Shown piece after piece: positions 21,248 to 42,732 of a stretch of DNA of 64,000 nucleotides; within the stretch, counting starts at the first letter, position 1; each line of letters begins with the position of its first letter. The DNA comes from Thalassospira sp. MCCC 1A01148 (GTDB lineage: Bacteria; Pseudomonadota; Alphaproteobacteria; Rhodospirillales; Thalassospiraceae): the NCBI RefSeq assembly GCF_001613795.1, contig NZ_LPVZ01000019.1, forward strand, positions 124,001 through 188,000, written 5' to 3'. The position numbers were made by a program, and so were the translations under genes. The notes under the pieces were generated by a model. The model made no database searches, was not told where the DNA came from, and saw only the letters and a program-made list of their open reading frames with translations.

Positions 21248-23002
21248 GTGACCGGATTTCATTGGTCCCGAAATCAACGACTAAGCCTTGTGGGCCGATA
21301 TACCTTGTTATCGGTCGGTGTTGTCGTGTGCGCGCTTCTGGCACTCAGTTTCTTTTATCAGCGCTTTTCCAATGAACTGATTGACCGTCTGACTGGTGAA
21401 CGGCTCAGTGCGCAGGTCGCGGCAACGTCAAACAAGCTTTCTGCCTTTCTTGATGCGCGCATCTATCAGCTGGTTACGCTGTCCAACCACCCGGCCCTGC
21501 CGGCCTTTATTGAAGCGCCGAATTCCCCACAGGCTGAAGAGGCCCTGACCCTGCTTCGGGTGGAGGCAGATTCGCCCGACCTTTATGGTGTGCTGTTTTT
21601 TGACTGGTACGACAATCTTGATCGCCTGGTCGCCGGCCAAGCCGCATCCGGCCCGCCTTATTGGTCGAAAAACGGCTGGGATATTTCCGGCCTGCCGCGT
21701 GTAGAGCACGAAGGTATTGAGTTTATCGGTCCCAAATTGCCCGAAAATGGCAATTCCGGCTGGATCTTGATGCGGGCCCATATCCGCGATACCGGCTTGG
21801 GGCAGAACACGTCTGTGGCCCTGCATGTGCGTCTGGCATCCCTGACCGAGCTTCTGGCAAGTGCCGGGGTGTCGGGCGTGATTGATCCGCTTTTGCGCAC
21901 GCCGGGCGGTATTGTTCTTGATGCCACCGGGCGGCCGACCGAGGTCACTGGCGAACTGATCGAAGGCCCCAGCATCCTTCCGGGATGGAACCTTGTGATG
22001 AGTGTTCGACCGGGCACCATCCTGCAGCCGATTGATGAAACGCGCTTTTGGCTGACGGTGACAGCCGCCGTCATCATTGTGGTTATTCTGGCGATCTTTT
22101 TTGCCCTGTCGCGCAGTCTGCGCCGACGGGTCGATACACTTGTTCAGGGGGCACACAGTATTGCATCGGGCGATCTGTATTACCGCCTGCCCGAAGGTCG
22201 CCGTCGCGATGAAATCAGCACGGTCGCCAAGGCCTTCAACACCATGGCCTGGCAGCTTAAAGACCTGATTGATCGGACAGTGCGCGCCGAAAAACTTGCC
22301 GTTCTGGGCCAGTTTGCCACCGGTGTGGCGCACGAGGTCCGCAATCCGCTGGCGACGATGAAAACCACCGTTCAGGCCCTTGTGCGCAAGGAACCCGATG
22401 GCGAGCGCAAAACACTTTTGGATGATATGGGCCACCAGATTGATCGTCTGTCACGCGTGGTGAATGATCTTCTGGCCTATGGCCGACCGGGTGAGGCTTG
22501 CCCGCAGGAAACCGAAATACGGGATCTGTTCCGACAGTCATCGCGCGTCCTGACCCCGGTCGCCGAAGAGGCCCAGGTGCGGTTTTACACCAGCGGCGAT
22601 TCCCGCCTGACGATCTTTGTCGACCCCGATCAGGTGCTGCAGATCCTGCTCAATATCGGGATCAATGCGATTCAGGCCTGCCAGCCCGGCGGCACAGTGA
22701 GCCTGCGCGCAGAACGCCACCACGATCAGGTCGAAATCCGCGTCACCGATGATGGCTCCGGCATCCCCAAAGAGCATTTGCTTGACGTCGTGCAGCCATT
22801 TTTTACCATGAAAAGCAAAGGAACCGGACTTGGCCTGACAATCAGCCAACAACTGGTCGAGTCAAATAACGGTTCAATCAATATTGAAAGTGCCCCGCAA
22901 GAGGGCACGACAATCACATTGAAGTTCCCGGCAACGAAATCGGAAACTTCAAAGGAGGAAACATCGAAAAATGCCCCGCCAGATCAGGATTCTGATCGTT
23001 GA
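21248..23002 (+). CDS. Sensor histidine kinase of a sigma-54 two-component system
   Basis: 584 residues from a GTG start. Membrane helix 1 is about residues 17-37, a periplasmic sensor domain (about 38-265, dCache-like by size) follows, then helix 2 (about 268-288) and HAMP (about 290-345). The HisKA box VAHEVRNPLATMKT has His362, and the HATPase region has N-box NIGINAIQA, G1 DDGSGIP and G2 GTGLGL. It is a NtrB/DctB-like kinase sensing something outside the cytoplasm. The 3' end overlaps the response regulator gene by 32 bp, and the tail after the ATPase domain is low-complexity (K, S, T, E). Downstream sites suggest it controls the ABC/dehydrogenase operon. Confidence 0.92.
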   Translation: MTGFHWSRNQRLSLVGRYTLLSVGVVVCALLALSFFYQRFSNELIDRLTGERLSAQVAATSNKLSAFLDARIYQLVTLSNHPALPAFIEAPNSPQAEEALTLLRVEADSPDLYGVLFFDWYDNLDRLVAGQAASGPPYWSKNGWDISGLPRVEHEGIEFIGPKLPENGNSGWILMRAHIRDTGLGQNTSVALHVRLASLTELLASAGVSGVIDPLLRTPGGIVLDATGRPTEVTGELIEGPSILPGWNLVMSVRPGTILQPIDETRFWLTVTAAVIIVVILAIFFALSRSLRRRVDTLVQGAHSIASGDLYYRLPEGRRRDEISTVAKAFNTMAWQLKDLIDRTVRAEKLAVLGQFATGVAHEVRNPLATMKTTVQALVRKEPDGERKTLLDDMGHQIDRLSRVVNDLLAYGRPGEACPQETEIRDLFRQSSRVLTPVAEEAQVRFYTSGDSRLTIFVDPDQVLQILLNIGINAIQACQPGGTVSLRAERHHDQVEIRVTDDGSGIPKEHLLDVVQPFFTMKSKGTGLGLTISQQLVESNNGSINIESAPQEGTTITLKFPATKSETSKEETSKNAPPDQDSDR

Positions 23003-24341
23003 TGATGAAGAATCATTCGTCCGATCACTAAGCTTTGCGCTTCGTACCGAAGGCATGGATGTCACCGGCGTCCATTCCGGTGAAGATGCGTTTTTGCAAG
23101 TCCGTGAAAACAAGTTCGATATCATCCTGCTTGATCTGCGCCTGCCCGGTGCCGATGGTATGGAGGTCCTTGATAGCATCCGCAAACTTGATATCGACGT
23201 GCCCGTCATCATGATTTCGGCCCATGGCGATACCCGTGCGGCGGTGAAAGCCGTCAAGCTTGGTGCGGCCGATTACCTGAGCAAGCCGTTCGAACTTGAT
23301 GAGCTGATCCACACGATCAACACCACCCTTGATCAGAACCGCACCGCGCTTGAGCTTGATTACCACCGCAAGCGCAATGTCCCGACCAACGGTCTGATTG
23401 GCGAATGCGCGCCGATGCGCGAATTGCGCACAACGATCGACCGTGTCGCACAAAGCAGTGCCAGCCGCATCCTGCTGCAAGGGGAGTCCGGGACCGGCAA
23501 GGCGCTGGTTGCGCGCGCAATTCACGGCCAAAGCCCGCGTGCCTCCAACGCCTTTATCGAGGTCAACTGTGCCGCCCTGCCAGAACAGCTGATTGAAAGC
23601 GAACTGTTTGGCGCCGAAAAGGGCTCCTACACCGGCGCGCATCAGAAACGCACCGGCCTTGTCCGTCTTGCCGATGGTGGCAGTCTGTTTCTGGATGAAA
23701 TCGGCGAATTGCCGCTGGCGCTGCAGGCGAAGTTCTTGCACTTCCTTGAAAACGGCGACTATCGCCCGGTCGGGAGCGAACATTCCGCATCGGCCGATGT
23801 CCGCGTGATTGCCGCGACCAACCGCGACCTTGCCGAGGAAGTCCGGTTGGGCAATTTCCGTGAAGACCTGTTTTACCGCCTGAACGTCATCACCATTGAT
23901 ATCCCCGCCCTGCGCCACCGCGGCGAGGACATTATCAAACTGGTCGACCATTTCGCCGATCATCAGGCCAAGGCCGAAGGATGCCATCCGATCCATTTTG
24001 ACGATGCAACCCTTGATCTGCTGCGCCATCATCGCTGGCGCGGCAATGTGCGCGAACTTAAAAACCTGATTGAGCGTCTGACCATTCTTTATCCGTCCAA
24101 ACAGATTTCGCCCGACCTGCTGCCGGCTGAATTCCACGTCACGGATGATAACCCCGATGATCTGCATGGCGGAGTTTCGGATGGCAATGCGCAATTGCAG
24201 GACCGCATGGACAACACCGAGCGTCATCTGGTGCAAGATGCGCTTGATCAGGCCGACGGTCACAAAGGCCGTGCGGCAGAAATACTTGGTATTTCACGTC
24301 ATGCCCTGAAACGCCGACTACAAAGGCTGGGCCTGCAATAA
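22971..24341 (+). CDS. Sigma-54-dependent response regulator (NtrC family)
   Basis: 456 residues. The receiver domain (1-120) has phospho-acceptor Asp55 in LLDLRLPG and Lys105. The AAA+ domain (about 140-375) has Walker A GESGTGKA (171-178), the sigma-54 contact loop GSYTGA (218-223) in place of the commoner GAFTGA, and Walker B LFLDEIGE. A Fis-type HTH (about 430-455, GRAAEILGISRHALKRRLQR) ends it. An AGGAGG site lies inside the kinase gene ahead of ATG 22971. Its likely binding site is the palindrome TTGAGCG-N5-CGCTCAA, found twice just downstream and once upstream of the cyclase gene. Confidence 0.94.
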   Translation: MPRQIRILIVDDEESFVRSLSFALRTEGMDVTGVHSGEDAFLQVRENKFDIILLDLRLPGADGMEVLDSIRKLDIDVPVIMISAHGDTRAAVKAVKLGAADYLSKPFELDELIHTINTTLDQNRTALELDYHRKRNVPTNGLIGECAPMRELRTTIDRVAQSSASRILLQGESGTGKALVARAIHGQSPRASNAFIEVNCAALPEQLIESELFGAEKGSYTGAHQKRTGLVRLADGGSLFLDEIGELPLALQAKFLHFLENGDYRPVGSEHSASADVRVIAATNRDLAEEVRLGNFREDLFYRLNVITIDIPALRHRGEDIIKLVDHFADHQAKAEGCHPIHFDDATLDLLRHHRWRGNVRELKNLIERLTILYPSKQISPDLLPAEFHVTDDNPDDLHGGVSDGNAQLQDRMDNTERHLVQDALDQADGHKGRAAEILGISRHALKRRLQRLGLQ

Positions 24342-24370: not shown

Positions 24371-24399
24371 CACCCTTGAGCGGTTTCCGCTCAAGGGTG
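24371..24399. promoter_or_regulatory. Upstream activating site 1, also a terminator hairpin
   Basis: TTGAGCG-GTTTC-CGCTCAA (24376-24394) lies inside a longer inverted repeat with 12-bp arms, from CACCC at 24371 to GGGTG at 24399, followed by TTTTGCTGTTT. The same DNA can act as a terminator for the regulator gene and as a binding site for the NtrC-type regulator. Confidence 0.78.
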
Positions 24400-24408: not shown

Positions 24409-24427
24409 TTGAGCGCCTAACGCTCAA
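24409..24427. promoter_or_regulatory. Upstream activating site 2
   Basis: TTGAGCG-CCTAA-CGCTCAA is a perfect 7+7 palindrome with the same arms as site 1 and its centre 33 bp away, about three helical turns. A further half site CGCTCAA occurs at 24433-24439. The centre lies about 95 bp before the -24 element, a normal distance for enhancer binding. Confidence 0.82.
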
Positions 24428-24511: not shown

Positions 24512-24526
24512 TGGCACAGCCTTTGC
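24512..24526 (+). promoter_or_regulatory. Sigma-54 promoter (-24/-12) of the ABC/dehydrogenase operon
   Basis: TGGCAC-AGCCT-TTGC matches the sigma-54 consensus exactly, with correct GG-to-GC spacing. Transcription would begin near 24537, about 50 nt before the first start codon. It rules out the longer open frame starting at 24523. Confidence 0.92.
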
Positions 24527-24585
24527 GGAATAGCGAGACAAAGGTACAAACGCGGATGGAACAACCATTCGCAGGGAGGAAAGTC

Positions 24586-25923
24586 ATGGAGATGCTCAAA
24601 CACCCGGTTTCCGGGTGCATCACCATTATTGTAGCCACGTTCGCACTGTTTGCGGCCAATACCGCACAGGCAGAACGTTTTGAGCTGGGCGCATCTGCAC
24701 AGAACGCAGATGCTGTCATCGGCTGTTTGTACCCGATGACCGGACGGTCGGCCACCTATGGCCGCGACAGTATTTCCGGCATCAAGATCGCCCTTCAGGA
24801 CCTCGAAGCCGAAGCAAAGTCCGGCCTGGATGTGCCCAATCTGCGCGTCATCGCCGATGACCCGCGATCAAAGGCATCCTATGCGGTCCGTCTGGCACAG
24901 GATTTCATCACCAATGACAATGCCAAGTTCTTCTGCGGCATCGTGTCATCGGGAGTGGCCCACGCCGTGAGCGATCTCGCCAAGAACGAAAAGATCATCA
25001 TGGTCGGTACCGATCATGCATCATCGCGGCTCAGCATCGAGGCCGGCCACGATTATTACTTCCGCGTCACCAATGACAGCTGGACGTCGATGGCCGCCGG
25101 TGCGCGCTATTTACGCGATCTGCAAAAGGAAACCGGGTGGAAACGCCTTGCCTTTGTCGGACCGGATTATGATTACGGCCATGTTTCCTGGACGGATCTG
25201 CAACTCGCCCTTGATGAACTGGGTGTCGAATATGAGACCGTCGGCGATCTGTGGCCGAAGCTTTATGAGCCGGATTATTCGATTTACATCAACGCCCTGC
25301 AATCGGCGAAGGCCGACGTGGTCGTAACCGCCCTTTGGGGCGGCGATTTCATCGCCTTTATCAAGCAGGCGGCATCAACCCGTTTCTTTGAAACCACCCG
25401 TCTGGCCAATTTCGATACCGGTGCAAATTACGATGTGATGATGGCCCTTGGTGATCAGCCCTATCCGGGTTTGATCCTGTCGGCACGCCATCACAATAAC
25501 TGGCCCGACACCGGCCGTAACAAGCGGTTCGTCAAACAGTTTCACGACATGACCGGGCGTTATCCGACCTATGCGGCCGAAGGCGCCTATACCGGGATCA
25601 TCGCCATTGCACGCGCCATTGAAAAGGCTGGTGGCGTTGACGATGACCGCGCGCTCATCACCGCACTTGAAGGATTGCAACTGGCCCTGCCCGAAGATCC
25701 GCCGGGCTTTGCATCCTATATCGATCCCGAAACTCACCAGATTGTCCAGGCGCAAGCCGTGGGCACGGTCGTCCACAACGAAGACTTTCCACCATCGAAA
25801 CTGATGGTGGGGAACTGGGCGATCTACGATGCCGAAGACCTCAAACCATCGAAAGAGATGGTCAAACGTCGCCGCGATGCCGTGGCCGGCGGGTCAGAGG
25901 CAGTTCCACCGCCAACTCCATGA
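24586..25923 (+). CDS. ABC transporter substrate-binding protein 1 (Leu/Ile/Val-binding family)
   Basis: 445 residues from ATG 24586, with GGGAGGAAAG just upstream. The signal peptide (about 1-29) ends in NTAQA. The mature part is a Peripla_BP_6 type I fold (IGCLYPMTGRSATYGRD near the N-terminus; VGTDHASSRLS; FVGPDYDYGH). A short Arg-rich, then Pro-rich tail ends it. First gene of the sigma-54-controlled operon. A second SBP of the same family follows 21 bp later. The two are only distantly alike, so they probably offer different ligand preferences to one transporter. Confidence 0.9.
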   Translation: MEMLKHPVSGCITIIVATFALFAANTAQAERFELGASAQNADAVIGCLYPMTGRSATYGRDSISGIKIALQDLEAEAKSGLDVPNLRVIADDPRSKASYAVRLAQDFITNDNAKFFCGIVSSGVAHAVSDLAKNEKIIMVGTDHASSRLSIEAGHDYYFRVTNDSWTSMAAGARYLRDLQKETGWKRLAFVGPDYDYGHVSWTDLQLALDELGVEYETVGDLWPKLYEPDYSIYINALQSAKADVVVTALWGGDFIAFIKQAASTRFFETTRLANFDTGANYDVMMALGDQPYPGLILSARHHNNWPDTGRNKRFVKQFHDMTGRYPTYAAEGAYTGIIAIARAIEKAGGVDDDRALITALEGLQLALPEDPPGFASYIDPETHQIVQAQAVGTVVHNEDFPPSKLMVGNWAIYDAEDLKPSKEMVKRRRDAVAGGSEAVPPPTP

Positions 25924-25944: not shown

Positions 25945-27258
25945 GTGAAGAACAATAAATCAAAATTCAGCAAATACCTTGTATCGGGCGTCGCAGCGCT
26001 TGCCCTTGCAGCTGGCGCAGCCGGTTCTGCATCGGCCGCTGAGAACGGCAAATTCCGCGTCGGGATCGTGACCTTCCTGTCCGGTCCGGCAGCTGGTCCG
26101 TTCGGCGTTCCGTCGGCAAATGCCGCCAAGGTTCTTGTTGAAGAACTGAACAAGGGCAACCTGCCTGCACCATACGACAAGATCGGCATCAATGGTGCTG
26201 AAATCGAAGCCGTGATCATCGACGAAGCCGGTGGTGCAACCAAGCAGGTTGAAGAATACCGCAACCTTGTTCAGCGTCAGAAAGTCGATGCTGTCATCGG
26301 CTATGTTTCTTCGGGCGACTGCCTGGCGATTGCGCCGGTTGCCGAAGAACTGAAAACCTTCACCATCGCATATGATTGCGGTACTCCCCGCCTGTTTGCT
26401 GACAACCCGGACGCGGCCTACATGTTCCGTACCGGCCTTGACGCATCTGTCGATAACATCGGTGCGGTTCGCTACCTTGCGGCAACCCGCCCGGACGTTA
26501 CCCGTCTTGCCGGTATCCAGCAGAACTATTCCTGGGGTCAGGACAGCTGGGCTGACTTCACCGCGGCTGCATCGGTCCTGATGCCCGAAGCAGAAATCGT
26601 CGAAGAGCAATTCCCGAAAATCTATCAGGGTCAGTACGGTGCAGAAATCTCTGCCCTGTCCGTGAAGCGCCCGGAAATCGTTCACAGCTCCTTCTGGGGT
26701 GGTGACATGGAAGCCCTGGTTCTGCAGGCAAATGCACGTGGCCTGCTTGAAGATGCAACCGGCCTTCTGACCTGCGGCGAAGCATCCTTTGCCACCTACA
26801 AGGATCAGGCCCCGAACGGCATGATCATCGGTGCACGTGGCCCGTTTGGCCAGTTCGCCCCGGACAACGAACTGAACACCTGGTTTGAGGGTGTCTATCA
26901 GAACGCCTATGACCTTGAGCCGGTCTATCCGGCAACCAAGATGGCCCAGGCGATCCTTGGTCTGAAATATGCCGCCGAGAATGCCGGTGTCGCCGATAAG
27001 GAAATCCCGTCGGCAGAACAACTTGCTGCTGCGATGAAAGGTGCAACCTTTGAGTCGGTTTCGGGCACGGTTGAAATGGCACGAGCCAATGGTCATCAGG
27101 CCATGCAGGGTATCACCTATGGTGAATACCACTACGAAGATGGCGTTGCCTCGATCAAGAACGCTGTTTCGTTTGATGGCGAATGCGTAACACCCCCGGA
27201 AGGTGTTGCTGCTGCGGACTGGATCGCAGACGGCTTCCCGGGCGCTAAGTGTAACTAA
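25945..27258 (+). CDS. ABC transporter substrate-binding protein 2 (Leu/Ile/Val-binding family)
   Basis: 437 residues from a GTG start preceded by AGGGAGGAAATA. The signal peptide ends near GSASAAE. Type I periplasmic binding fold: FRVGIVTFLSGPAAGPFG, VIIDEAGGATKQVEEYR, YVSSGDCLAIAPVAEE, and a Cys-containing C-terminus (GECVTPPEG, then GAKCN) that may form a disulfide. Strong, regular codon use suggests high expression. Two intercistronic hairpins follow before the first permease gene, typical where SBP must outnumber membrane subunits. Confidence 0.92.
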   Translation: MKNNKSKFSKYLVSGVAALALAAGAAGSASAAENGKFRVGIVTFLSGPAAGPFGVPSANAAKVLVEELNKGNLPAPYDKIGINGAEIEAVIIDEAGGATKQVEEYRNLVQRQKVDAVIGYVSSGDCLAIAPVAEELKTFTIAYDCGTPRLFADNPDAAYMFRTGLDASVDNIGAVRYLAATRPDVTRLAGIQQNYSWGQDSWADFTAAASVLMPEAEIVEEQFPKIYQGQYGAEISALSVKRPEIVHSSFWGGDMEALVLQANARGLLEDATGLLTCGEASFATYKDQAPNGMIIGARGPFGQFAPDNELNTWFEGVYQNAYDLEPVYPATKMAQAILGLKYAAENAGVADKEIPSAEQLAAAMKGATFESVSGTVEMARANGHQAMQGITYGEYHYEDGVASIKNAVSFDGECVTPPEGVAAADWIADGFPGAKCN

Positions 27259-27265: not shown

Positions 27266-27324
27266 GCTCTGTTTCACAGAGCTTCCTGATCCTGCGGACA
27301 TCCCGTCTCCCTTGGGGTGTCCGC
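27266..27324 (+). other. Intercistronic hairpins after SBP 2
   Basis: Two inverted repeats: GCTCTG-TTTCA-CAGAGC (27266-27282) and GCGGACA...TGTCCGC (27294-27324) with extra inner CCC/GGG pairing. Neither is followed by a clear T run, so partial termination or protection of the upstream mRNA end is likelier than full termination. Confidence 0.65.
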
Positions 27325-27352
27325 CCCTTTCCCTGCACACTGGATATTTGTG

Positions 27353-28252
27353 ATGACAAGTCTTCTTGCCGTCCTGATTGATGGCTCGATCTATGCATCG
27401 TGGCTGTTTCTTGTGGCTGCCGGCCTGACCGTGATTTACGGGGTGATGCGCATCCTGAACATGGCGCATGGCAGCTTTTATGCCATCGGCGCCTATTCGG
27501 CAGCGTCACTGGTTGGCTGGTATTTCAACAACGGCATGGGCCCGGCGTGGGTCAGCTATTTGTTGCTGGTTGGTGCCGCGCTGGTTGCCGGTCTGATTGT
27601 CGGTGTGATCGTCGAACGCGGATTGCTGCGCCTCATGTATGGCCGCGACGAAATCCTGATGGTGATCATTACCTATGCCCTTCTTCTGATTCTTGAAGAC
27701 GGTATGAAAATCGTCTGGGGTGTCAGCCCCTATTTCGCCTATCAGCCTTATTCCGAGCTTGGGCGAACATCGCTCGGCTTGCTTAAGGTTTCCAATTACG
27801 ACGTCGCCCTGGTCGGGGTATCCGCATTGCTTGGGCTTGGCCTGTGGGCGTGGCTTGAACGCACCAATCAGGGCAAGGTCCTGCGTGCAGTGATCCATGA
27901 CCGCGAAATCGCGGTTGCCATGGGCGTGAACGTGAAACTGATGTTCACCATTACCTTCGTTCTGGGCACCACACTGGGCGCACTTGCCGGTGCGCTGACT
28001 GCGCCTGCGATCTCTGTCGTGCCGGGGATCGGCATCGAAGTGATCGTTCTGGCCTTTGCCGTGGTGGTTATCGGTGGCCTTGGCAGCATCGGAGGGGCCG
28101 CTGTTGGTGCCCTTTTGGTCGGGCTAAGCCGTGCAGCCGCTGTTCACTATGCCCCTGAATTCGAACTGTTCGTCATTTACGGCGTGATGTCACTGGTTCT
28201 GGCGTTCCGTCCCGAAGGCCTGTTTGGCCGTACTTTGGCGAGGAAAATCTGA
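27353..28252 (+). CDS. Branched-chain-type ABC permease (LivH-like)
   Basis: 299 residues with eight or so hydrophobic helices. Family motifs include GLTVIYGVMRILNMAHGSFYAIGAY near the N-terminus, ALRAV-type loop KVLRAVIHDREIAVAMGVN, and VIGGLGSIGGAAVGALLVG. I start at ATG 27353 rather than the in-frame GTG at 27317, because the latter lies inside the intercistronic hairpin. It forms the inner-membrane channel with the LivM-like protein. The stop is 1 bp before the next start. Confidence 0.9.
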   Translation: MTSLLAVLIDGSIYASWLFLVAAGLTVIYGVMRILNMAHGSFYAIGAYSAASLVGWYFNNGMGPAWVSYLLLVGAALVAGLIVGVIVERGLLRLMYGRDEILMVIITYALLLILEDGMKIVWGVSPYFAYQPYSELGRTSLGLLKVSNYDVALVGVSALLGLGLWAWLERTNQGKVLRAVIHDREIAVAMGVNVKLMFTITFVLGTTLGALAGALTAPAISVVPGIGIEVIVLAFAVVVIGGLGSIGGAAVGALLVGLSRAAAVHYAPEFELFVIYGVMSLVLAFRPEGLFGRTLARKI

Positions 28253-28253
28253 C

Positions 28254-29201
28254 ATGCGTCTTGATAAAACTGAAATCTCGCTCGGACTGATCGCGCTTGC
28301 CTGCGTTCTGTTCGGCTTCGTTTCGCCGGGTTGGCTGATCTTCCTTTTGACCATCGCGCTGGCCAAGGCACTTGTCGTCCAGGGCGTCGTCATGCAGATG
28401 CGTTCCGGCCTCGTATCCTTTGGTCAGGGCCTGTTCTATTGCATCGGTGGTTACACCGTTGGCATGGGCGGCCAGTTCTTTGGCATTCATGATGCGATTG
28501 CTGCCCTGTCACTTGGCATGTTTGTCGCAATCGTCGTTGCCATGCTGTTGGGTCTGTTGCTGACGCGCTATCGCGAAATCTTCTTTGCCATGCTGTCGCT
28601 GGCATTTTCGATGATCCTGTTTGGCATCCTTGTCAAAAGTCAGGAACTGGGCAGCACGGACGGCTTTAACGTTCATGACTGGACCCTGTTTGGCTGGGCC
28701 CCCGAAGCAGGCGCTGGCAGCCAGCACACCGTCTTTACCATGACTGTGGTCTCTGGTCTGATCGTTGCTGTTCTGATCCATCGGTACACCAAGGCAGGCA
28801 TTGGCGTCATTTGCGAGGCTGTTCGCGAAAATGAAGTCCGTGTTGAATATCTTGGTCTGTCACCGCGCTGGTTGCTTTATGGCAACTATGTTGCTGCGGC
28901 TGCGGTATCGGCCCTTGGCGGCGGTCTGACGGCGCTGGCCACCGGCCACGTTGATCCGGAGATGGCCTATTGGACCACGTCGGGTGAATTTGTCTTCATC
29001 GCGCTTTTGGGTGGTTTGGGCCACGTGGCAGCACCGTTTATTGCGGCCATCGTGTTCTCGTTCGTGCGGACCTACGCCATCGAATTCGTTCCCCATACCT
29101 GGCAGATGATCCTCGGTTTCACGCTGCTTGCGGTCATTATCTTCCTGCCCAAAGGGCTGTGGAGCCTGGTCAGCCGTGAAAAAACAGGAGAACGGGCATG
29201 A
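28254..29201 (+). CDS. Branched-chain-type ABC permease (LivM-like)
   Basis: 315 residues from ATG 28254 with an AGGAAAAT site overlapping the end of the previous gene. About ten hydrophobic segments. Family motifs: MQMRSGLVSFGQGLFYCIGGYT, LLTRYREIFFAMLSLAFSM, AVRENEVRVEYLG and a glycine-rich LLGGLGHVAAPFI near the C-terminus. It partners the LivH-like subunit. The stop overlaps the ATPase start by 4 bp. Confidence 0.91.
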   Translation: MRLDKTEISLGLIALACVLFGFVSPGWLIFLLTIALAKALVVQGVVMQMRSGLVSFGQGLFYCIGGYTVGMGGQFFGIHDAIAALSLGMFVAIVVAMLLGLLLTRYREIFFAMLSLAFSMILFGILVKSQELGSTDGFNVHDWTLFGWAPEAGAGSQHTVFTMTVVSGLIVAVLIHRYTKAGIGVICEAVRENEVRVEYLGLSPRWLLYGNYVAAAAVSALGGGLTALATGHVDPEMAYWTTSGEFVFIALLGGLGHVAAPFIAAIVFSFVRTYAIEFVPHTWQMILGFTLLAVIIFLPKGLWSLVSREKTGERA

Positions 29202-29974
29202 CCTGCATTCTTGAAACACGTTCGCTGAACAAGGAATTCGGCGCGGTCATCGCCGCAAAGGATTTGAACGTTCAGATCAACAAGGGTGAAGTCGTTGGTG
29301 TGATCGGCTCCAACGGGGCTGGCAAAACGACCTTCATCAACATGGTGACGGGCTATCTCAAGCCGACACGCGGCGAGATCCTGTTTAACGGCAAGTCCAT
29401 CATGGGCCATTCCCCGCGTGCGATCACGCGGGCCGGTATGGCGCGTTCCTTTCAGGTTGCGCAGCTGTTCCCGGAAATGACCGTGCTCGACAACCTGATT
29501 GTCGCGCTGGCTGCGGCCGAAAGCGCCCGTCCGAGTTTCCTAAGCCCCCTGCGCAGCGATGCCCGTATTGCCAGGGCTGAGGAAATCCTTAAGGAATTCG
29601 GTGTCGAAAACTATCGCAATTCACTGGTAACCGCCGTTCCGCAGGGTGCGCGTAAACTAGTTGATATCGCCATGGCGTTGATCGGCAATCCTCAGATGCT
29701 GCTGCTTGATGAACCGACCAGTGGTGTCAGCGTGGATGAAAAAACCGACCTGATGGATACGGTCATGAATGCCGTGCGTCAGCATGGCGTAACCGTGCTG
29801 TTTGTCGAACATGACATGGATGTGGTCGAACGCTATGTCTCGCGCGTTCTGGCATTCTATAGCGGCGAAATCATTGCTGATGGCGAACCTGCGGCTGTTC
29901 TGGCCGATCAGCAGGTCCGCGATCTTGTGACCGGCCATCGTCCCACCACCAAACAAGGGAATGGCGCATCATGA
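29198..29974 (+). CDS. ABC transporter ATP-binding protein (LivG-like)
   Basis: 258 residues. Walker A is GSNGAGKTTF; Walker B and D-loop are LLLLDEPTSG; the H-loop is FVEHDMDVV. The signature is not LSGGQ but VPQGARKLVDIA, a divergence also found among LivG-type subunits, so activity need not be lost. A LivG-typical long helical insert follows the Q-loop (QLFPEMTVLDNL). Overlaps both neighbours by 4 bp, showing tight co-translation. Confidence 0.92.
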   Translation: MTCILETRSLNKEFGAVIAAKDLNVQINKGEVVGVIGSNGAGKTTFINMVTGYLKPTRGEILFNGKSIMGHSPRAITRAGMARSFQVAQLFPEMTVLDNLIVALAAAESARPSFLSPLRSDARIARAEEILKEFGVENYRNSLVTAVPQGARKLVDIAMALIGNPQMLLLDEPTSGVSVDEKTDLMDTVMNAVRQHGVTVLFVEHDMDVVERYVSRVLAFYSGEIIADGEPAAVLADQQVRDLVTGHRPTTKQGNGAS

Positions 29975-30633
29975 CCCTGGAAATCAGTAATCTCGATGTA
30001 TCGATCGGTAATATTCCGATCCTGCGCGATGTCTCGCTTTCGGTGCCGTCCGGCAAGATGTTTGGCCTGATCGGCCATAACGGGGCGGGCAAGACCACGC
30101 TGATGCGCGCCATCATGGGCCTTCTGGACGCAGATCAGGGCACCATCACCTTTGATGGGCAGGACCTGCGCAAGATGGCTGACTTTGCCCGTGCCAAAGC
30201 CGGCATCAGCTATATGCCCGAAGATCGCCGTCTGATCCCGTCCCTGACGGTCGAGGAAAACATTCTTCTTCCGGCCTGGACCAACGGTATTGCGGACGCC
30301 GAGGAACGGTTGAAATGGGTCTATGACCTGCTGCCGGAAATCGCCCAGTTCCGGGATCGCCGTGCGCTGCAGCTTTCCGGTGGTCAGCAGAAACTGGTCT
30401 CGCTCGGGCGTGCATTGATGCCCGGTCGCAATCTTTTGTTGCTCGATGAACCGTTCGAAGGGGTCGCACCGGTCCTGTCACGCCGCCTGTCGGAAGTCAT
30501 TTCCGATCTTGGCAGCAGCGGGCTGTGCGTTCTGATCTCTGAATCTGATGACAGCCACTCCGCCGATCTGGTGGCGGGCAGTTATCGCATCGAACGTGGC
30601 ACCGTTTCCAAGGCTGAACTGGAAACCGCCTGA
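29971..30633 (+). CDS. ABC transporter ATP-binding protein (LivF-like)
   Basis: 220 residues, slightly short for LivF (about 235). Walker A is GHNGAGKTTL, the Q-loop is YMPEDRRLIPSLTV, the signature is LSGGQQKLV, Walker B is LLLLDEPFEG. The usual H-loop His appears replaced: the position reads VLISESDD where most LivF have a VEQ/EHN-type sequence; several LivF proteins lack a canonical His, so this may be tolerated. It pairs with the LivG-like ATPase. Last transporter gene before the dehydrogenases. Confidence 0.9.
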   Translation: MTLEISNLDVSIGNIPILRDVSLSVPSGKMFGLIGHNGAGKTTLMRAIMGLLDADQGTITFDGQDLRKMADFARAKAGISYMPEDRRLIPSLTVEENILLPAWTNGIADAEERLKWVYDLLPEIAQFRDRRALQLSGGQQKLVSLGRALMPGRNLLLLDEPFEGVAPVLSRRLSEVISDLGSSGLCVLISESDDSHSADLVAGSYRIERGTVSKAELETA

Positions 30634-30668: not shown

Positions 30669-31823
30669 ATGTCAGACTTTGTGTTTGAAACCACTCCTCG
30701 CGTCATCTGCGAGTTCGACGGTGCCTTGCAACTCGGCACCCTGTGCAAGGAGTTCGGCGCGAAACGCGCCGTTCTTCTGTCCGATCCGGGTTTGCAGAAG
30801 GTTGGCCTGATCGACGCCCCTTATGCAGCACTTAAGGAAGCCGGGATTGAAACCCTGCTTTGGACCGATGTTCAGGCAGACCCGCCCGAGGAAAGCATTC
30901 TTGCCGCGGTCAAGGGTGCCCGTGACTTCAAGGCCGATATCGTCATCGGCCTTGGCGGCGGTTCATCGCTTGATACCGCAAAACTGGTCGCCCTTCTGTG
31001 TGGCAAGGATCAGAAACTTGACGAGATCTATGGCATCGGTCTGGCAACCGTTCCGCGCCTGCCGCTTATTCAGGTGCCGACCACGGCGGGCACCGGTTCG
31101 GAAGTCACGCCGATTTCGATCGTTACCACGCCAACGCACGAGAAAAAGGGCGTGGTGTCCAGCCTGCTTTATCCCGATGTCGCACTGCTTGATGCCAAAC
31201 TGACCATGGGCCTTCCGGCCCCGATCACGGGCATGACCGGCATTGATGCCATGGTACACGCCATTGAGGCCTACACCACCAAGCACAAGAAAAATGCCCT
31301 GTCGGACGGACTTGCCATCCGCGCGATGCAGCTGATGACAGCCCATATCGATGATGCGGTTTCTGCCAGCCCGTCACGCGAAGCCCGTGAAGCCATGCTT
31401 CAGGGGTCCATGCTGGCCGGAATGGCCTTTGCCAATGCCCCGGTCGCAGCGGTTCATGCCCTTGCCTATCCACTGGGCGGGCATTTCCATGTCCCGCATG
31501 GACACAGCAATGCGCTGGTCCTGATCGAGGTTTTGAAATTCAATCGGGATGCGGCCGTATCGCAATATGCCGAACTCGCCCGCGCCATTCTGCCGGGTGA
31601 AAAGTTCGCAAATGACGATGCTGCCTGTGATCGCTTCATTGCTTTCATGACCGACATGGTCGAACGCATGCCATTCAGCCGCACCTTGCGCGAAGTCGGC
31701 GTGGCGGAAAGCGATCTCGACATGCTGGCGACCGATGCGATGAAGGTTGAACGCCTTTTGATCAACAATCCGCGTGAAATGACGTTCGACGCCGCCCGCG
31801 CGATCTATGCCGCCGTGCTGTAA
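30669..31823 (+). CDS. Iron-containing alcohol dehydrogenase 1
   Basis: 384 residues from ATG 30669, preceded by GAGGT at proper distance; an in-frame ATG at 30648 lacks a site. Group III (Fe) ADH fold: NAD-binding GLGGGSSLDTAK, PTTAGTGSEVT, then metal ligands Asp and His in MTGIDAMVHAIEAY and two His in the HALAYPLGG / VPHGHSNA segment. It would oxidise an alcohol group to an aldehyde with NAD+. It is a paralogue of the gene after gabD. Together they suggest stepwise oxidation of a diol or omega-hydroxy acid. Confidence 0.92.
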   Translation: MSDFVFETTPRVICEFDGALQLGTLCKEFGAKRAVLLSDPGLQKVGLIDAPYAALKEAGIETLLWTDVQADPPEESILAAVKGARDFKADIVIGLGGGSSLDTAKLVALLCGKDQKLDEIYGIGLATVPRLPLIQVPTTAGTGSEVTPISIVTTPTHEKKGVVSSLLYPDVALLDAKLTMGLPAPITGMTGIDAMVHAIEAYTTKHKKNALSDGLAIRAMQLMTAHIDDAVSASPSREAREAMLQGSMLAGMAFANAPVAAVHALAYPLGGHFHVPHGHSNALVLIEVLKFNRDAAVSQYAELARAILPGEKFANDDAACDRFIAFMTDMVERMPFSRTLREVGVAESDLDMLATDAMKVERLLINNPREMTFDAARAIYAAVL

Positions 31824-31841
31824 CGAAAAGGAATAGCCACC

Positions 31842-33317
31842 ATGACCATCCAGCTAAATGATACTGGCCTTTGGCAAACCCAGGGGCATATCGACGGCAA
31901 ATGGGTTGCATCGGACAGCGGCAAGACCTTTGCGGTTGTTGACCCGGCCACCGGCGAACATCTTGCCGATGTTCCCGATATGGGCGCGGCAGAAACCAAT
32001 CGTGCGATTGATGCCGCCAATGCCGCCCTTCCAACTTGGCGGGCCAAAACCGCCAAGGAACGTGCAAATGTGTTGCGCAAATGGTTTGACCTCTGCATGG
32101 CGGCACAGGCCGACCTTGCATTGCTGATGACCCGCGAACAGGGCAAACCCCTGGCCGAGGCATCCGGCGAAGTGGCCTATGGCGCGTCCTTCCTTGAATG
32201 GTTTGCCGAAGAAGGCAAACGCATTTACGGCGATGTCATCCCGTCCCATGGCGCGGACAAACGCATCATCACCGTCAAACAGCCGATTGGTGTTGTTGCC
32301 GCGATCACGCCGTGGAACTTCCCGATGGCAATGATCACGCGCAAATGTGCCCCGGCCCTTGCCGCGGGTTGCACGGTCGTCATCAAACCGGCGGAAGATA
32401 CCCCGCTGACCGCGCTTGCACTGGTCGAACTGGCCAAACGTGCCGGGTTCCCCGATGGCGTACTCAATATCGTCACGGCATCACACGGGGCGGAAATCGG
32501 TGGTGAACTGACTGCCAACCCGATCGTGCGCAAGTTGTCCTTCACCGGCTCCACCCAGGTCGGCAAACTTTTGATGCGTCAATGTTCTGATACCGTCAAA
32601 AAAGTCAGCCTGGAGCTTGGCGGCAATGCGCCGTTTATTGTCTTTGACGACGCCGATCTGGATGCGGCCGTTGCAGGCGCGATTGCCTCGAAATACCGCA
32701 ATGCCGGTCAGACCTGTGTCTGTGCCAACCGCATTCTGGTTCAGGAAGGTGTCTATGACGCCTTCGCCGCCAAACTGGCCGAGGCCGTTGGCAAATTGCG
32801 TGTCGGTTTGGGCACCGAAGAAGGCATCACCCAGGGCCCGCTGATCAATGCCAAGGCGATTGAAAAAGTCGAAGCACTTGTCGAAGACGCGGTTTCACGT
32901 GGGGCAAAGGCTGTTCTGGGTGGTGACCGGGCCAAACCGGATAGCAACTTCTTTACCCCGACCATTCTGACCGGGGTTACGTCGGATATGCGGATTTTCT
33001 CCGAGGAAATCTTTGGTCCGGTTGCACCGCTGTTCAAATTCAGCAGCGAAGAAGACGCCATTCGCATGGCCAATGACACGCCATTTGGTCTGGCTGCCTA
33101 TTTCTATGCCCGTGATATCGGCCGCATCTGGCGGGTTGGCGAGGCGCTTGAATACGGCATCGTTGGCATCAACGAAGGCATCATTTCGACCGAATCAGCC
33201 CCGTTTGGCGGGGTCAAGGAATCCGGCATCGGCCGCGAAGGGTCGAAATACGGCGTCGATGACTTCGTCGAGATTAAATATATGTGCCTCGGCGGTCTCG
33301 CCGGGAATGCCAACTGA
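31842..33317 (+). CDS. gabD: NAD(P)-dependent succinate-semialdehyde dehydrogenase, GabD type
   Basis: 491 residues, highly similar in layout to E. coli GabD: SGEVAYGASFLEWFAEEGKRI-like block around 108-128, PWNFP (157-161), FTGSTQVG (234-241), catalytic Glu259 in LELGGNAPF and Cys292 in NAGQTCVCAN, and the C-terminal GREGSKYG. GabD enzymes oxidise succinate semialdehyde, and often glutarate semialdehyde, to the acid. No GABA aminotransferase gene is nearby; the partners are two Fe-alcohol dehydrogenases. So the semialdehyde probably comes from a hydroxy acid or diol rather than GABA. That last point is inference. Confidence 0.9.
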   Translation: MTIQLNDTGLWQTQGHIDGKWVASDSGKTFAVVDPATGEHLADVPDMGAAETNRAIDAANAALPTWRAKTAKERANVLRKWFDLCMAAQADLALLMTREQGKPLAEASGEVAYGASFLEWFAEEGKRIYGDVIPSHGADKRIITVKQPIGVVAAITPWNFPMAMITRKCAPALAAGCTVVIKPAEDTPLTALALVELAKRAGFPDGVLNIVTASHGAEIGGELTANPIVRKLSFTGSTQVGKLLMRQCSDTVKKVSLELGGNAPFIVFDDADLDAAVAGAIASKYRNAGQTCVCANRILVQEGVYDAFAAKLAEAVGKLRVGLGTEEGITQGPLINAKAIEKVEALVEDAVSRGAKAVLGGDRAKPDSNFFTPTILTGVTSDMRIFSEEIFGPVAPLFKFSSEEDAIRMANDTPFGLAAYFYARDIGRIWRVGEALEYGIVGINEGIISTESAPFGGVKESGIGREGSKYGVDDFVEIKYMCLGGLAGNAN

Positions 33318-33338
33318 TCCCGGATAAGGAGACACATC

Positions 33339-34493
33339 ATGAGTTTCATGTTCCGAAGCGTGCCGCGCATCGTCTGCGAAGCCGGCGGCATTGCCAAGAC
33401 CGGCAGCCTGATGAAGGAACTCGGCGCCAGCCGTGTCACCATTGTCTGCGATCCGGGCATCGTCAAACTGGGCTTTGCGCAAAAGGCGCAAGATGCACTT
33501 GAGGCCGCCGGTATCGCGGTTCAGGTCTTTTCCGAGGTCGAAGCCGACCCGCCCCAGAAAATCGTCGAAGCCGCCATTGCCGGTGCACGTGAATGGAAGG
33601 CGGATGGCGTAATCGGTCTTGGCGGCGGCAGCTCGCTCGATAGTGCCAAGCTGGTTGCATTGCTTGCCAACAGCGATCAGACCATCGAAGAGATCTATGG
33701 GGTGGACAAGGCAACCGGTGATCGCCTGCCGTTGATCCAGATCCCGACCACCGCCGGGACCGGATCGGAAGTTACATGGGTGTCGGTGATTACCGATAAC
33801 GACCACCTCAAACAGGTTGTCTACACCCCGCAACTGATGCCCGATATCGCGCTTCTTGATGCGGAACTGACCTATGGCCTGCCGCAAAAGGTCACAGCGG
33901 CCACGGGCCTTGATGCCATGGTCCATGCGATCGAAGGCTATACCAGCCGCACACGCAAAAACCCGATTGCCGATGGCATGGCGGTCACCGCCCTTTCGCT
34001 GCTCGGCAAGAACCTGATGAAGGTGATTGAAAATCCGGGTGACAAGCAAGCACGCTCTGCCATGTTGCAGGGATCGCTGATTGCCGGGATGGCCTTTGCC
34101 AATGCATCGGTTGCCGCCATTCATGGATTGGCCTATCCGCTGGGCGCACGTTTCCACATCCCGCATGGCCATGCCAATGCGCTGGTGATGGCGCAGGTGA
34201 TCCGCTTTAACCTGCCAGCCGCGAAAAAGCTGTATGCCGAACTCGCCCCGTGCCTGATCGAAGGGGTCGATTTTGACAGCGAAGACGCCGCCGCCGAGGC
34301 GTTCGTCAAACGGATCGAGGAAATGGTCCCGGCCAGCGGTCTTGAAATCCGCCTGCGCGATCTTGGCGTTACCGAAGAGTCCCTGCCTGAAATGGCCGAG
34401 GAAGTCTTTACCAAGATCCATCGCCTGATCGACAGCAATCCGCGCGACATGACTACCAAGGAAATCGAGGCGATTTATCGCAGCGTTTATTGA
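33339..34493 (+). CDS. Iron-containing alcohol dehydrogenase 2
   Basis: 384 residues, the same length and fold as Fe-ADH 1 (GLGGGSSLDSAK, PTTAGTGSEVTWVS, ATGLDAMVHAIEGY with metal Asp/His, HGLAYPLGARFHIPHGHANA with metal His). It reads as a diverged tandem duplicate with gabD in between. ATG 33339 has an AAGGAGA site 10 nt upstream. Last gene of the sigma-54-controlled operon. Keeping both copies suggests they act on two different alcohol groups or chain lengths. Confidence 0.92.
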   Translation: MSFMFRSVPRIVCEAGGIAKTGSLMKELGASRVTIVCDPGIVKLGFAQKAQDALEAAGIAVQVFSEVEADPPQKIVEAAIAGAREWKADGVIGLGGGSSLDSAKLVALLANSDQTIEEIYGVDKATGDRLPLIQIPTTAGTGSEVTWVSVITDNDHLKQVVYTPQLMPDIALLDAELTYGLPQKVTAATGLDAMVHAIEGYTSRTRKNPIADGMAVTALSLLGKNLMKVIENPGDKQARSAMLQGSLIAGMAFANASVAAIHGLAYPLGARFHIPHGHANALVMAQVIRFNLPAAKKLYAELAPCLIEGVDFDSEDAAAEAFVKRIEEMVPASGLEIRLRDLGVTEESLPEMAEEVFTKIHRLIDSNPRDMTTKEIEAIYRSVY

Positions 34494-34531
34494 TTTGCCC
34501 GTTTGCAAACTTCGGTTTGTATCGTGGCACA

Positions 34532-34570
34532 AGAACCGGCGGCCTGTTTGGTCGCTTGGCCGCCGGTTCT
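34532..34570. terminator. Probable terminator hairpin between convergent genes
   Basis: A 13-bp perfect stem (AGAACCGGCGGCC with its complement) and 13-nt loop lie between the Fe-ADH 2 and cyclase stops. T runs are weak on both sides, so termination efficiency is uncertain. Confidence 0.6.
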
Positions 34571-34596
34571 AAAGTTATCAAAATGATCAGACCGGC

Positions 34597-35544
34597 TTAG
34601 CGAATGGCAACCGGGTTGATGATCATCTGTACAGCGCCCTTAAGCTTGGCCTGCCCGAGAACGAACAGGAACTCGTGCGCCCGGTCTGCGGCCAGGTCCC
34701 GGGTGACGATATTTTCAAGAATATAGACACCGTTTTCTGCCAGAAGCTTCACATGGACCGGGAAGAAAGTACTGGGATCTTCATGGGGAACAGCTTCAAG
34801 CCCCCATGTATCGGCGCCAACGGCCACAACACCCTGATTTGCCAACCATTCCGCTGCTTCCAGACCGAGGCCCGGTTCGGTCGTCCCGTAAAGCTCGTTG
34901 TCCTTCCCGACCAAATCAAGCCATCCGGTATGGATCAGAGCCACATCTCCCTTGCGAATTTCGGTACCTGCCGCTTTTTGGGCCGCCAAGATGTCCTCAA
35001 GGGTGATGACATAGCCGCCTTCAAGACGATCCGTCCCCTTGATCGCCGCAACGTCCAGCAGAACACCACGCGTTGCCATTGGTGGCACGTTTTCAATGCC
35101 AAGCTTGGTCAGGCCGGTGGCTGCGACCATGTCTTCGGCGTGGTTATTGTTATAATAGGTATGATGATCACCCAGATGGCCCAGACCATCAATCTGTGTC
35201 CCGACACCGAGCCAGCCGGTGAACATGTCATCGTTGTAGGTTCCCGCATTGCTGCCGATTGTTTTGTTACCGCTTTGTCCGGGCGAGAAAACCGTCACTG
35301 CGACACCACGTGGTGCAAAGGCCGGCGTATCACGTGAAACTTCCATTCCCAGTGAATAGACCTTGCCTTCGGAAATCAGCTTGCTGGCTGCAAGTGTTAC
35401 TTCCGAAGTCAGATAGTTCGCTGCCCCGATCTGATCTTCCGGACCAAAGTGAGAACTGAACCTTTCATCAGCACACGCAGAGCCAACAATTCCGATTGCA
35501 CCAAGCATTGCGGATGCAAAGGTCACGATTTTTACTTTTTGCAT
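34597..35544 (-). CDS. Exported cyclase-family (kynurenine formamidase-like) hydrolase
   Basis: 315 residues from ATG 35544 with GGGAGGAAAT upstream. A signal peptide (about 1-25, ending SACADE) sends it to the periplasm. Cyclase family (PF04199-like) with GTQIDGLGHLGD in place of the usual HxGTHxDxPxH: Asp and the last His are kept, while two His positions are Gly and Gln, as in the long-form members of the family. Relatives hydrolyse amide or lactam bonds (formylkynurenine, isatin) with Mn or Zn. A sigma-54 promoter and a TTGAGCG palindrome upstream put it under the neighbouring two-component system, so it may open a ring or amide before import. Confidence 0.85.
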   Translation of the reverse strand: MQKVKIVTFASAMLGAIGIVGSACADERFSSHFGPEDQIGAANYLTSEVTLAASKLISEGKVYSLGMEVSRDTPAFAPRGVAVTVFSPGQSGNKTIGSNAGTYNDDMFTGWLGVGTQIDGLGHLGDHHTYYNNNHAEDMVAATGLTKLGIENVPPMATRGVLLDVAAIKGTDRLEGGYVITLEDILAAQKAAGTEIRKGDVALIHTGWLDLVGKDNELYGTTEPGLGLEAAEWLANQGVVAVGADTWGLEAVPHEDPSTFFPVHVKLLAENGVYILENIVTRDLAADRAHEFLFVLGQAKLKGAVQMIINPVAIR

Positions 35545-35580: not shown

Positions 35581-35595
35581 GCAATTCTTGTGCCA
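35581..35595 (-). promoter_or_regulatory. Sigma-54 promoter (-24/-12) of the cyclase gene
   Basis: On the minus strand TGGCAC-AAGAA-TTGC matches the sigma-54 consensus exactly, the same 15-bp architecture as at 24512. The predicted start near 35570 leaves a leader of about 26 nt containing the ribosome site. Confidence 0.9.
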
Positions 35596-35633: not shown

Positions 35634-35652
35634 TTGAGCGGTCGCCGCTCAA
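35634..35652. promoter_or_regulatory. Upstream activating site 3 (cyclase gene)
   Basis: TTGAGCG-GTCGC-CGCTCAA has both 7-bp arms identical to sites 1 and 2 upstream of the ABC/dehydrogenase operon. It lies about 50 bp beyond the -24 element of the cyclase promoter. This shared site is the main evidence for a common regulator. Confidence 0.85.
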
Positions 35653-36378: not shown

Positions 36379-36388
36379 ATCGGCCTCT

Positions 36389-38264: not shown

Positions 38265-38329
38265 GATTTATGCACTTTCAGAGGTATCGGCAGCACCGGG
38301 ATGCGATGCCGCCGATACAGGGAGTGTCA

Positions 38330-39358: not shown

Positions 39359-39564
39359 TGTTTCCTCCCTGAGCAAACCGGCACCGGCAATTTTGTTTTT
39401 GTTGCCTTGTCTGTCGGTTTCTCGATTTGATCAGACCACCCTTGGAAGCCTTTGCCCCATGGGTTGGGCTGATCGCCAAACCGGGCCCAAAACCAATGTC
39501 CCGGCTAAAAATAACGTCTCCGGTTGTCGCGACCCGGCGCAGCGGATGGCGCCTTGGATCGTGC

Positions 39565-40815: not shown

Positions 40816-40816
40816 G

Positions 40817-42682: not shown

Positions 42683-42713
42683 GAGACGAAACCTCCAATT
42701 TATCTTTTCTTAT

Positions 42714-42732
42714 TTGTTATAATTCATAACAA
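42714..42732. promoter_or_regulatory. MarR-type operator A (CoA ligase side)
   Basis: TTGTTAT-AATTC-ATAACAA is a perfect 7+7 palindrome just upstream of the CoA-ligase gene. Its arms are identical to operator B. The AT-rich site overlaps a possible minus-strand -10 (TTATAAC). Confidence 0.82.

Follow-up and report, generated by a model that had tools for sequence, protein, structure and literature searches.

A stretch of 64,000 nucleotides from Thalassospira sp. MCCC 1A01148 (contig NZ_LPVZ01000019.1, positions 124,001 to 188,000; hereafter the window) contains a conserved gene set, here called the cassette. It consists of a sensor kinase, an NtrC-type regulator, a Liv-type ATP-binding cassette (ABC) importer with two solute-binding proteins (SBP1 and SBP2), an iron-containing alcohol dehydrogenase (ADH1), a succinate-semialdehyde-type dehydrogenase (SSADH) and a second iron-containing alcohol dehydrogenase (ADH2), and it is followed by a gene for a PF04199 cyclase-family protein. 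The strongest new result is a sigma-54 regulon of two units that ties the cyclase to the importer operon. On balance, the genes probably form a two-component, sigma-54-controlled module for a small omega-hydroxy acid, likeliest 4-hydroxybutyrate (or a C5 homologue), which in some strains would be obtained from a lactone or an ester.

Sigma-54 promoters and candidate regulator sites

Only two mismatch-free copies of the sigma-54 element TGGCAC-N5-TTGC occur in the window, one before SBP1 and one before the cyclase gene, and each has a perfect TTGAGCG-N5-CGCTCAA dyad upstream. Of the four perfect dyads in the whole genome (4.3 Mb), three are in the window (24376, 24409 and 35634). The fourth copy (C20:39506) lies inside clpB with no sigma-54 match (at most one mismatch) in the surrounding 19.5 kb, and was treated as a chance occurrence. 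The combination of a sigma-54 site and a dyad no more than 200 bp upstream of it, with one mismatch allowed in either, was found at these two places in the window and in none of 150 dinucleotide shuffles; allowing two mismatches in either brought up one more combination, which reuses the dyad at 35634. Sigma-54 matches with at most two mismatches exceed chance only modestly (130 in the window vs. a shuffle mean of 99.45), so that weight can be given just to the perfect sites, taken in their context. Dyads with at most two mismatches were found at 28 places genome-wide on the forward strand, vs. 14 for a control pattern. Among the 15 of these places that were inspected, a sigma-54 element (at most one mismatch) lay within 260 bp of just the three dyads of the regulon, and none was found within that distance of the other 12.

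The same signals are conserved in relatives. Across 29 Thalassospira genomes the perfect dyad occurred 23 times in 14 genomes, 22 of the 23 at this regulon as judged by coordinate comparison, and the control pattern did not occur. In addition, 54 loci were fetched by similarity to ADH1 (close ADH1 relatives only) and searched by tblastn with 48 window proteins; SBP1 and SBP2 were found together in 20 of them, the cassette loci. All 20 have a sigma-54 element (no more than one mismatch; 17 perfect) in front of SBP1, and 17 have a dyad there with up to two mismatches. The core palindrome GAGCGG-N3-CCGCTC remains in loci L022 and L023, and neither dyad nor core palindrome was seen upstream of SBP1 in L053. 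Each of the 13 Thalassospira cyclase genes has a sigma-54 element (at most one mismatch) at −51, and 11 have the dyad (pattern with at most two mismatches; exceptions L080 and L084). Four cyclase copies that lie far from SBP2 (42–58 kb or on another contig) retain both element and dyad, which argues for real co-regulation rather than a shared neighbourhood. A sequence-only reading of this DNA had proposed that the cyclase is co-regulated, and that proposal now has strong sequence support, with binding of the regulator to the dyads predicted.

Gene organization

The importer operon and the cyclase gene are convergent and form separate transcription units (Table 1). ADH1, SSADH and ADH2 run in the same direction, downstream of the importer. 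The conserved unit is larger than the stretch first flagged: its start is not at 30669 but at the sensor kinase (21248). Since the listed start of the SBP1 open reading frame (ORF) at 24523 overlaps the promoter, the true start is probably the ATG at 24556 or a later one.

Table 1. Positions in the window of the genes, promoter elements and candidate regulator sites of the regulon
Feature	Position	Strand	Basis
Sensor histidine kinase (HAMP, HisKA, HATPase_c)	21248..23002	+	domain search
NtrC-type response regulator (receiver, sigma-54 interaction domain, Fis-type helix-turn-helix)	22971..24341	+	domain search
Dyad TTGAGCG-N5-CGCTCAA, candidate regulator site 1	24376..24394		pattern search
Dyad TTGAGCG-N5-CGCTCAA, candidate regulator site 2, 33 bp from site 1	24409..24427		pattern search
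Sigma-54 −24/−12 element TGGCAC-N5-TTGC, importer operon	24512..24526	+	pattern search
SBP1, solute-binding protein 1 (Peripla_BP_6)	24556..25923	+	Pfam
SBP2, solute-binding protein 2 (Peripla_BP_6)	25945..27258	+	Pfam
LivH-type permease	27317..28252	+	NCBIfam/Pfam scan
LivM-type permease	28224..29201	+	NCBIfam/Pfam scan
LivG-type ATPase	29198..29974	+	NCBIfam/Pfam scan
LivF-type ATPase	29971..30633	+	NCBIfam/Pfam scan
ADH1, iron-containing alcohol dehydrogenase, clade holding BlcB	30669..31823 (ORF from 30648)	+	PF00465, tree
SSADH, succinate-semialdehyde-type dehydrogenase (GabD-type)	31842..33317	+	TIGR01780
ADH2, second iron-containing alcohol dehydrogenase, clade separate from ADH1	33339..34493	+	PF00465, tree
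PF04199 cyclase-family hydrolase, signal-peptide-like N-terminus	34597..35544 (ORF extends to 35610)	−	PF04199
Sigma-54 −24/−12 element, cyclase gene	35581..35595	−	pattern search
Dyad TTGAGCG-N5-CGCTCAA upstream of the cyclase promoter	35634..35652		pattern search

Genes on either side were considered as parts of the system and set aside. The upstream TRAP/Hut genes gave only scattered weak matches beside the cassette in other loci. The minus-strand TRAP-thiolase-ligase operon likewise did not recur there apart from scattered weak matches, and the cyclase has its own promoter. The region 35923–50213 carries an acyl-CoA ligase, a thiolase, a TRAP transporter and a DUF3237 gene on the minus strand, and a short-chain dehydrogenase/reductase (SDR), a crotonase, a second TRAP transporter, a thioesterase and an acyl-CoA dehydrogenase on the plus strand. 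Together these genes resemble a cluster for the beta-oxidation of a carboxylic acid taken up from outside.

Distribution of the cassette and of the cyclase

The order kinase-regulator-SBP1-SBP2-LivHMGF-ADH1-SSADH-ADH2 recurs across several families. The 20 cassette loci come from Thalassospira, Novispirillum, Insolitispirillum, Magnetospirillum, Xanthobacter, one member of the Rhodospirillaceae and one Rhodocyclales metagenome-assembled genome. ADH1 is present in all 20; SSADH, ADH2 and the upstream kinase and regulator are each present in 18. The sequence of L018 ends before SSADH and ADH2, L023 has no SSADH, L053 has no ADH2, and the kinase and regulator are missing upstream in L023 and L053. 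In the remaining 34 of the 54 loci the ADH1 relative stands in different surroundings. Three Thalassospira loci (L014, L015 and L016) carry a second ADH1-like gene (78–79% identity) without the cassette. The loci from Undibacterium, Noviherbaspirillum and relatives (L032, L034, L035, L037–L041, L044–L046, L048 and L052) have a GMC oxidoreductase and a Liv-type importer of another kind close to the ADH1 relative, and in some of them there is also an aldehyde dehydrogenase; this may be a further cluster for alcohol oxidation.

The cyclase lies within the fetched flank of four of the 20 cassette loci, two others (L011 and L018) ending before its place. It was found in 13 of the 29 Thalassospira genomes, and an SBP2 orthologue (at least 89% identity) in 18, including all 13 with the cyclase. 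The cyclase is thus present in 13 of 18 SBP2-positive vs. 0 of 11 SBP2-negative genomes (Fisher p 1.3e-4, or 4.1e-4 if genome G021, with SBP1 at a contig end, is counted as SBP2-positive; neither value is corrected for kinship). The distance between cyclase and SBP2 is 8.2–8.7 kb in nine genomes and 42–58 kb in three, and in one genome the two are on different contigs. Within the order, 32 of 248 genomes had SBP2 relatives (E ≤ 1e-60). Of these 32, 14 are outside Thalassospira, and among the 14 only one, from another family (G179), has a cyclase of more than 60% identity.

Dehydrogenases

The sequence-only reading had described a GabD flanked by two paralogous iron-containing alcohol dehydrogenases with no gamma-aminobutyrate (GABA) transaminase, and the ORFs and family matches confirm this description. 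ADH1 and ADH2 scored 155.7 and 171.6 bits against PF00465 (cut-off 31.3) and are 49.9% identical to each other. SSADH scored 733.7 bits against TIGR01780 (cut-off 646.35) and stayed below the GabD equivalog NF008415 (796.3 vs. 828). No transaminase family, that of GABA included, was found among the ten proteins from SBP1 to the cyclase in the NCBIfam/Pfam scan, and none of the 12 genome-wide matches to TIGR00700 (GABA transaminase) exceeded the cut-off of 506.65 (best 460.3).

ADH1 is 99% identical to its best named Thalassospira relatives. Compared with the Agrobacterium enzymes BlcB and BlcA, ADH1 and ADH2 are 55.0% and 48.8% identical to BlcB and SSADH is 60.2% identical to BlcA over 482 columns. 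A tree was built with 77 sequences, leaving out matches that covered 90% of the query or less, and was rooted on E. coli FucO/YiaY. It places ADH1 together with BlcB in a clade of 54 members (support 0.967) that is separate from the ADH2 clade; inside this clade of 54, BlcB is not the nearest neighbour of ADH1. The ADH2 clade (support 0.988) holds the cassette orthologues and two marine plasmid enzymes. On two marine plasmids, from Ruegeria and Roseibium (L100 and L101), an ADH2-like gene stands in identical arrangement with an SSADH, an acyl-CoA dehydrogenase and a CoA transferase.

The two Arg and the Cys that serve substrate binding and catalysis in human SSADH are present in all 24 aligned SSADH sequences, and the Ser in 23 (Thr in L055). 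The window's genome has 14 further aldehyde dehydrogenase matches. One of them, an SSADH-like gene (51% identity), lies directly beside an aminotransferase match (G000:C19:55627-58478), and this pair is a candidate for a transaminase-linked route elsewhere in the genome. With these other enzymes at hand, the cassette SSADH is probably a dedicated one.

The gap between ADH1 and SSADH was inspected in nine loci outside Thalassospira (L019–L025, L053 and L056). A hotdog (4HBT) thioesterase gene occupies it in seven (L019, L021, L022, L023, L025, L053 and L056; family scan on two) and is missing in L020 and L024. The gap is just 19–28 bp in the 11 Thalassospira cassette loci, and a search of the window's genome, run without a positive control, returned no match to the thioesterase. 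It was therefore rejected as a general step. The thioesterase at 48109 of the window was also rejected as its orthologue, at just 20.6–28.6% identity.

Importer and binding proteins

The importer has the components of the hydrophobic amino acid uptake (HAAT, Liv-type) set by Pfam, namely Peripla_BP_6, two BPD_transp_2 permeases and two ATPases. Residues S79, T102, Y202 and E226 were taken to be the ligand contacts in LivJ numbering. In alignments of 8 of the 20 SBP1 and 8 of the 20 SBP2 sequences, S79 is kept in both proteins, and T102, Y202 and E226 are not kept (A or G, W, and T or L, respectively). The loss of several LivJ contacts speaks against a canonical branched-chain amino acid as ligand. 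A model of SBP2 from 17 sequences reached a predicted local distance difference test (pLDDT) score of 78.9. In a fold search, 3i45, 4maa (entry title: amino-acid ABC transporter protein) and binders of hydroxybenzoate/vanillate ranked highest (Z 37.5–39.5). Binders of amino acids, amides and urea came next at about Z 34–37, and these ranks are too close together to name a ligand.

The cyclase-family hydrolase

The cyclase scored 94.0 bits against PF04199 (cut-off 23.1), and its only sequence match in the PDB was 5ibz (MGS0169; E 1.2e-34). MGS0169 has been described as a metal-stimulated carboxylesterase that is weakly active on isatin (PMC5341072). The active site given for it combines the motif Q127-x3-Q131-x-D133-x3-H137, common to trans-dienelactone hydrolase, with F84, R87, H286 and E299, and the word lactone is absent from the text of the paper as consulted (PMC5341072). 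Seven of these eight residues (F84, R87, Q131, D133, H137, H286 and E299) are retained in the cyclase, and the equivalents of Phe84, Arg87, His286 and Glu299 are kept in all 13 Thalassospira copies. An esterase or lactonase activity is plausible from this conservation. The N-terminus looks like a signal peptide by eye and has a hydropathy maximum, which suggests that the protein may be periplasmic or exported. An AlphaFold2 model from 6 of the 13 copies reached a pLDDT of 33.1 and was not used.

Relatives of the cyclase occur in several settings. On a Palleronia plasmid one lies beside an SBP2-like Liv-type importer (binding protein 38.2% identical to SBP2), and in G179 a cyclase (60%) lies beside an importer with an SBP2 of 51%. 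In Roseovarius a relative is near Liv-type genes, a lyase and a gene of the muconate-lactonizing family. Relatives in Palleronia and Azotobacter adjoin medium-chain dehydrogenase/reductase (MDR)-type dehydrogenases, and those in Rhizobium and Rhodococcus have other neighbours.

Proposed pathway and alternative explanations

In the module proposed here for an omega-hydroxy acid, the kinase would sense the compound, and the NtrC-type regulator would bind the dyads and activate the two sigma-54 promoters whose sites are seen in the sequence. Promoter 1 would drive SBP1-SBP2-LivHMGF-ADH1-SSADH-ADH2, and promoter 2 an exported PF04199 hydrolase that may open a lactone or cleave an ester. The hydroxy acid would then be taken up by the ABC importer, converted to a semialdehyde by ADH1 and/or ADH2, and oxidized by the GabD-type enzyme to a dicarboxylate (succinate if C4), the last two steps being predicted from homology. 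For the substrate, 4-hydroxybutyrate/gamma-butyrolactone is the first guess, with a C5 homologue or a diol next. A lactam is the weakest version: its opening would yield an amino acid, and the cassette has no transaminase. If correct, the proposal defines a specific regulon, made up of one regulator, one DNA site and two promoters, through which small lactones or hydroxy acids are taken up and oxidized; such compounds have links to the breakdown of polyesters and solvents. Liv-type binding proteins, for which the usual annotation is branched-chain amino-acid transport, would gain a ligand class, and one branch of the PF04199 'cyclases' would gain a function.

The sequence-only reading had placed a periplasmic ring or amide opening before import and the oxidation of a hydroxy acid or diol to a dicarboxylate. 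This pathway survives in part: the dehydrogenases match BlcB and BlcA, the closest solved relative of the cyclase is a metal-stimulated esterase, and the binding proteins are without several LivJ contacts. The opening step is not a fixed part of it. The cyclase is accessory and the cassette does not need it, since it is missing from 5 of the 18 SBP2-positive Thalassospira genomes and was not seen within the fetched flanks of cassette loci of other genera. We hold only tentatively the more specific proposal of dedicated lactone/omega-hydroxy-acid scavenging under a two-component/sigma-54 regulon. In this version the ring would be opened outside the inner membrane by an exported lactonase of the PF04199 family, its metal motif being G-Q-D-H, and a two-SBP Liv-type importer would bring in the hydroxy acid for a Blc-like oxidation to succinate.

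Besides this limited distribution of the cyclase, several observations weigh against the omega-hydroxy acid module. ADH1 and ADH2 are below every NCBIfam equivalog cut-off shown; against the 4-hydroxybutyrate dehydrogenase (Cupriavidus type) NF058672 they scored 220.9 and 246 vs. a cut-off of 500, and the ADH1 relative of L055 scored 252.4. SSADH is not diagnostic of the Blc pathway, as the window enzyme and BlcA are similarly close to E. coli GabD (66.0% and 65.1% identity) and the window enzyme is no closer to BlcA than to GabD. Outside Thalassospira, the thioesterase suggests that a CoA thioester is involved. At position 100 (LivJ numbering) both binding proteins have Asp, which is not obviously suited to an anion, and the nearest folds of SBP2 include hydroxybenzoate and vanillate binders, close to amino-acid/urea binders. 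In all 13 Thalassospira cyclases Q127 of MGS0169 is replaced by Gly, giving G-x3-Q-x-D-x3-H, so that none of the 13 copies has the full Q-x3-Q-x-D-x3-H metal motif of the MGS0169/trans-dienelactone hydrolase-like subfamily. Finally, the clusters of Palleronia and G179 contain no iron-containing alcohol dehydrogenase or SSADH in the stretches read, and importer and cyclase may serve another compound there.

These points bear on three other explanations. In one, which we regard as unlikely though worth keeping in view, the two alcohol dehydrogenases would work one after the other, ADH2 converting an alpha,omega-diol (1,4-butanediol, for instance) and ADH1 the hydroxy acid; the GabD-type enzyme would oxidize the aldehydes, and the cyclase would split a diol or hydroxy-acid ester. 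The occurrence of two distinct ADH clades together in 18 of the 20 cassette loci fits such a division of labour, as does the esterase activity of MGS0169, the closest solved relative of the cyclase. Pseudomonas putida, as described, needs one iron-containing alcohol dehydrogenase for 4-hydroxybutyrate and other enzymes for the diol (PMC7090098). However, the sequence holds nothing that separates a diol from a hydroxy acid, and by our own reasoning a two-SBP importer would hardly be needed for small diols.

Slightly less probable again is a reading in which the importer, the regulator and the cyclase act on behalf of some other compound, perhaps a hydroxylated aromatic or a different carboxylic ester or lactone, and the dehydrogenases process a short piece of it. 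The Palleronia and G179 clusters, the hydroxybenzoate and vanillate binders among the nearest ligand-bound folds of SBP2 and the thioesterase in other genera are consistent with this. The order of importer and ADH1 is, however, stable over several families, and in the SBP2 fold search no more than a few Z separate the top ranks from binders of amino acids, amides and urea, so that the ranking reveals no ligand. It is very improbable that the alcohol dehydrogenases work mainly in reverse, turning a semialdehyde from elsewhere into a hydroxy acid in a redox, storage or detoxification system. Iron-containing alcohol dehydrogenases are reversible enzymes, their sub-threshold NCBIfam matches here include reductases such as SarD, and the L055 relative occurs in a polymer-synthesis setting where reduction would be the useful direction. 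A dedicated importer and a semialdehyde-oxidizing enzyme in one operon nevertheless fit uptake and oxidation, and there is no polyhydroxyalkanoate (PHA) gene in the window cassette.

Comparison with known systems

The assembly was not found described in titles and abstracts of the open-access literature, a search that mostly left subscription journals outside. Its parts have relatives in several known systems. MGS0169 (PDB 5IBZ), from a metagenome, is a PF04199 relative that has seven of eight active-site residues in common with the cyclase; it differs in Q127, which is Gly here, and in that the protein described here has a signal-peptide-like N-terminus and a sigma-54 promoter. In P. putida KT2440 the iron-containing alcohol dehydrogenase PP_2049 has been reported to be needed for growth on 4-hydroxybutyrate and 1,4-butanediol; extract assays in that study were unsuccessful (PMC7090098). 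The likeness to the PP_2047-2051 operon is this dehydrogenase, essential for growth on 4-hydroxybutyrate. Unlike the cassette, the operon is set among beta-oxidation genes and, as described, has no importer or GabD (PMC7090098).

The gabDT system of GABA catabolism in E. coli has in common with the cassette a GabD-type enzyme (66.0% identity), but no transaminase was found among the cassette proteins scanned, and the semialdehyde here is predicted to come from an alcohol. Methylobacterium trifolii (L055:10001-15500) has, in a row, an ADH1 relative, a PhaE-like gene (NCBIfam 75.7, below the cut-off of 154.95; Pfam 71.3, above 25.7), a class III PhaC (382.3 vs. a cut-off of 365.3), a CoA transferase (Pfam 104.3 vs. 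23) and an SSADH (60%). The ADH1 relative and SSADH belong to the cassette's groups; the difference is that polymer-synthesis genes stand between them and that SBP1 and SBP2 are absent from the fetched stretch. We take this gene set to fit the metabolism of poly-4-hydroxybutyrate (P4HB), and the row is a possible 4-hydroxybutyrate polymer operon. The arrangement supports a C4 hydroxy acid as the substrate of the ADH1 group, and raises our confidence in it slightly.

The blcABC (attKLM) operon on pAtC58 of Agrobacterium fabrum C58 has been reported to convert gamma-butyrolactone to 4-hydroxybutyrate and then to the semialdehyde (PMC3907764, PMC5924552, as consulted), with succinate as the end product (PMC3907764). 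It resembles the cassette in its SSADH and iron-containing alcohol dehydrogenase and in the predicted route from hydroxy acid through semialdehyde to dicarboxylate. The lactonase BlcC has a metallo-beta-lactamase fold, whereas here a PF04199 protein is encoded in a separate unit; BlcC matches Lactamase_B, and no match was found among the ten proteins from SBP1 to the cyclase, the rest of the genome not having been searched. BlcR is an IclR-type repressor, in contrast to the kinase, NtrC-type regulator and sigma-54 sites described here. No ABC importer was found in the 11 kb read around blcABC, whereas one is present here, and there is one alcohol dehydrogenase there vs. two here. We do not assign the cassette to the Blc system, given its different lactonase family and regulator, although its enzymes probably work like the Blc pathway. 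Overall, the regulation, the importer and the ring-opening enzyme look different from the known pathway, and the enzymes resemble it.

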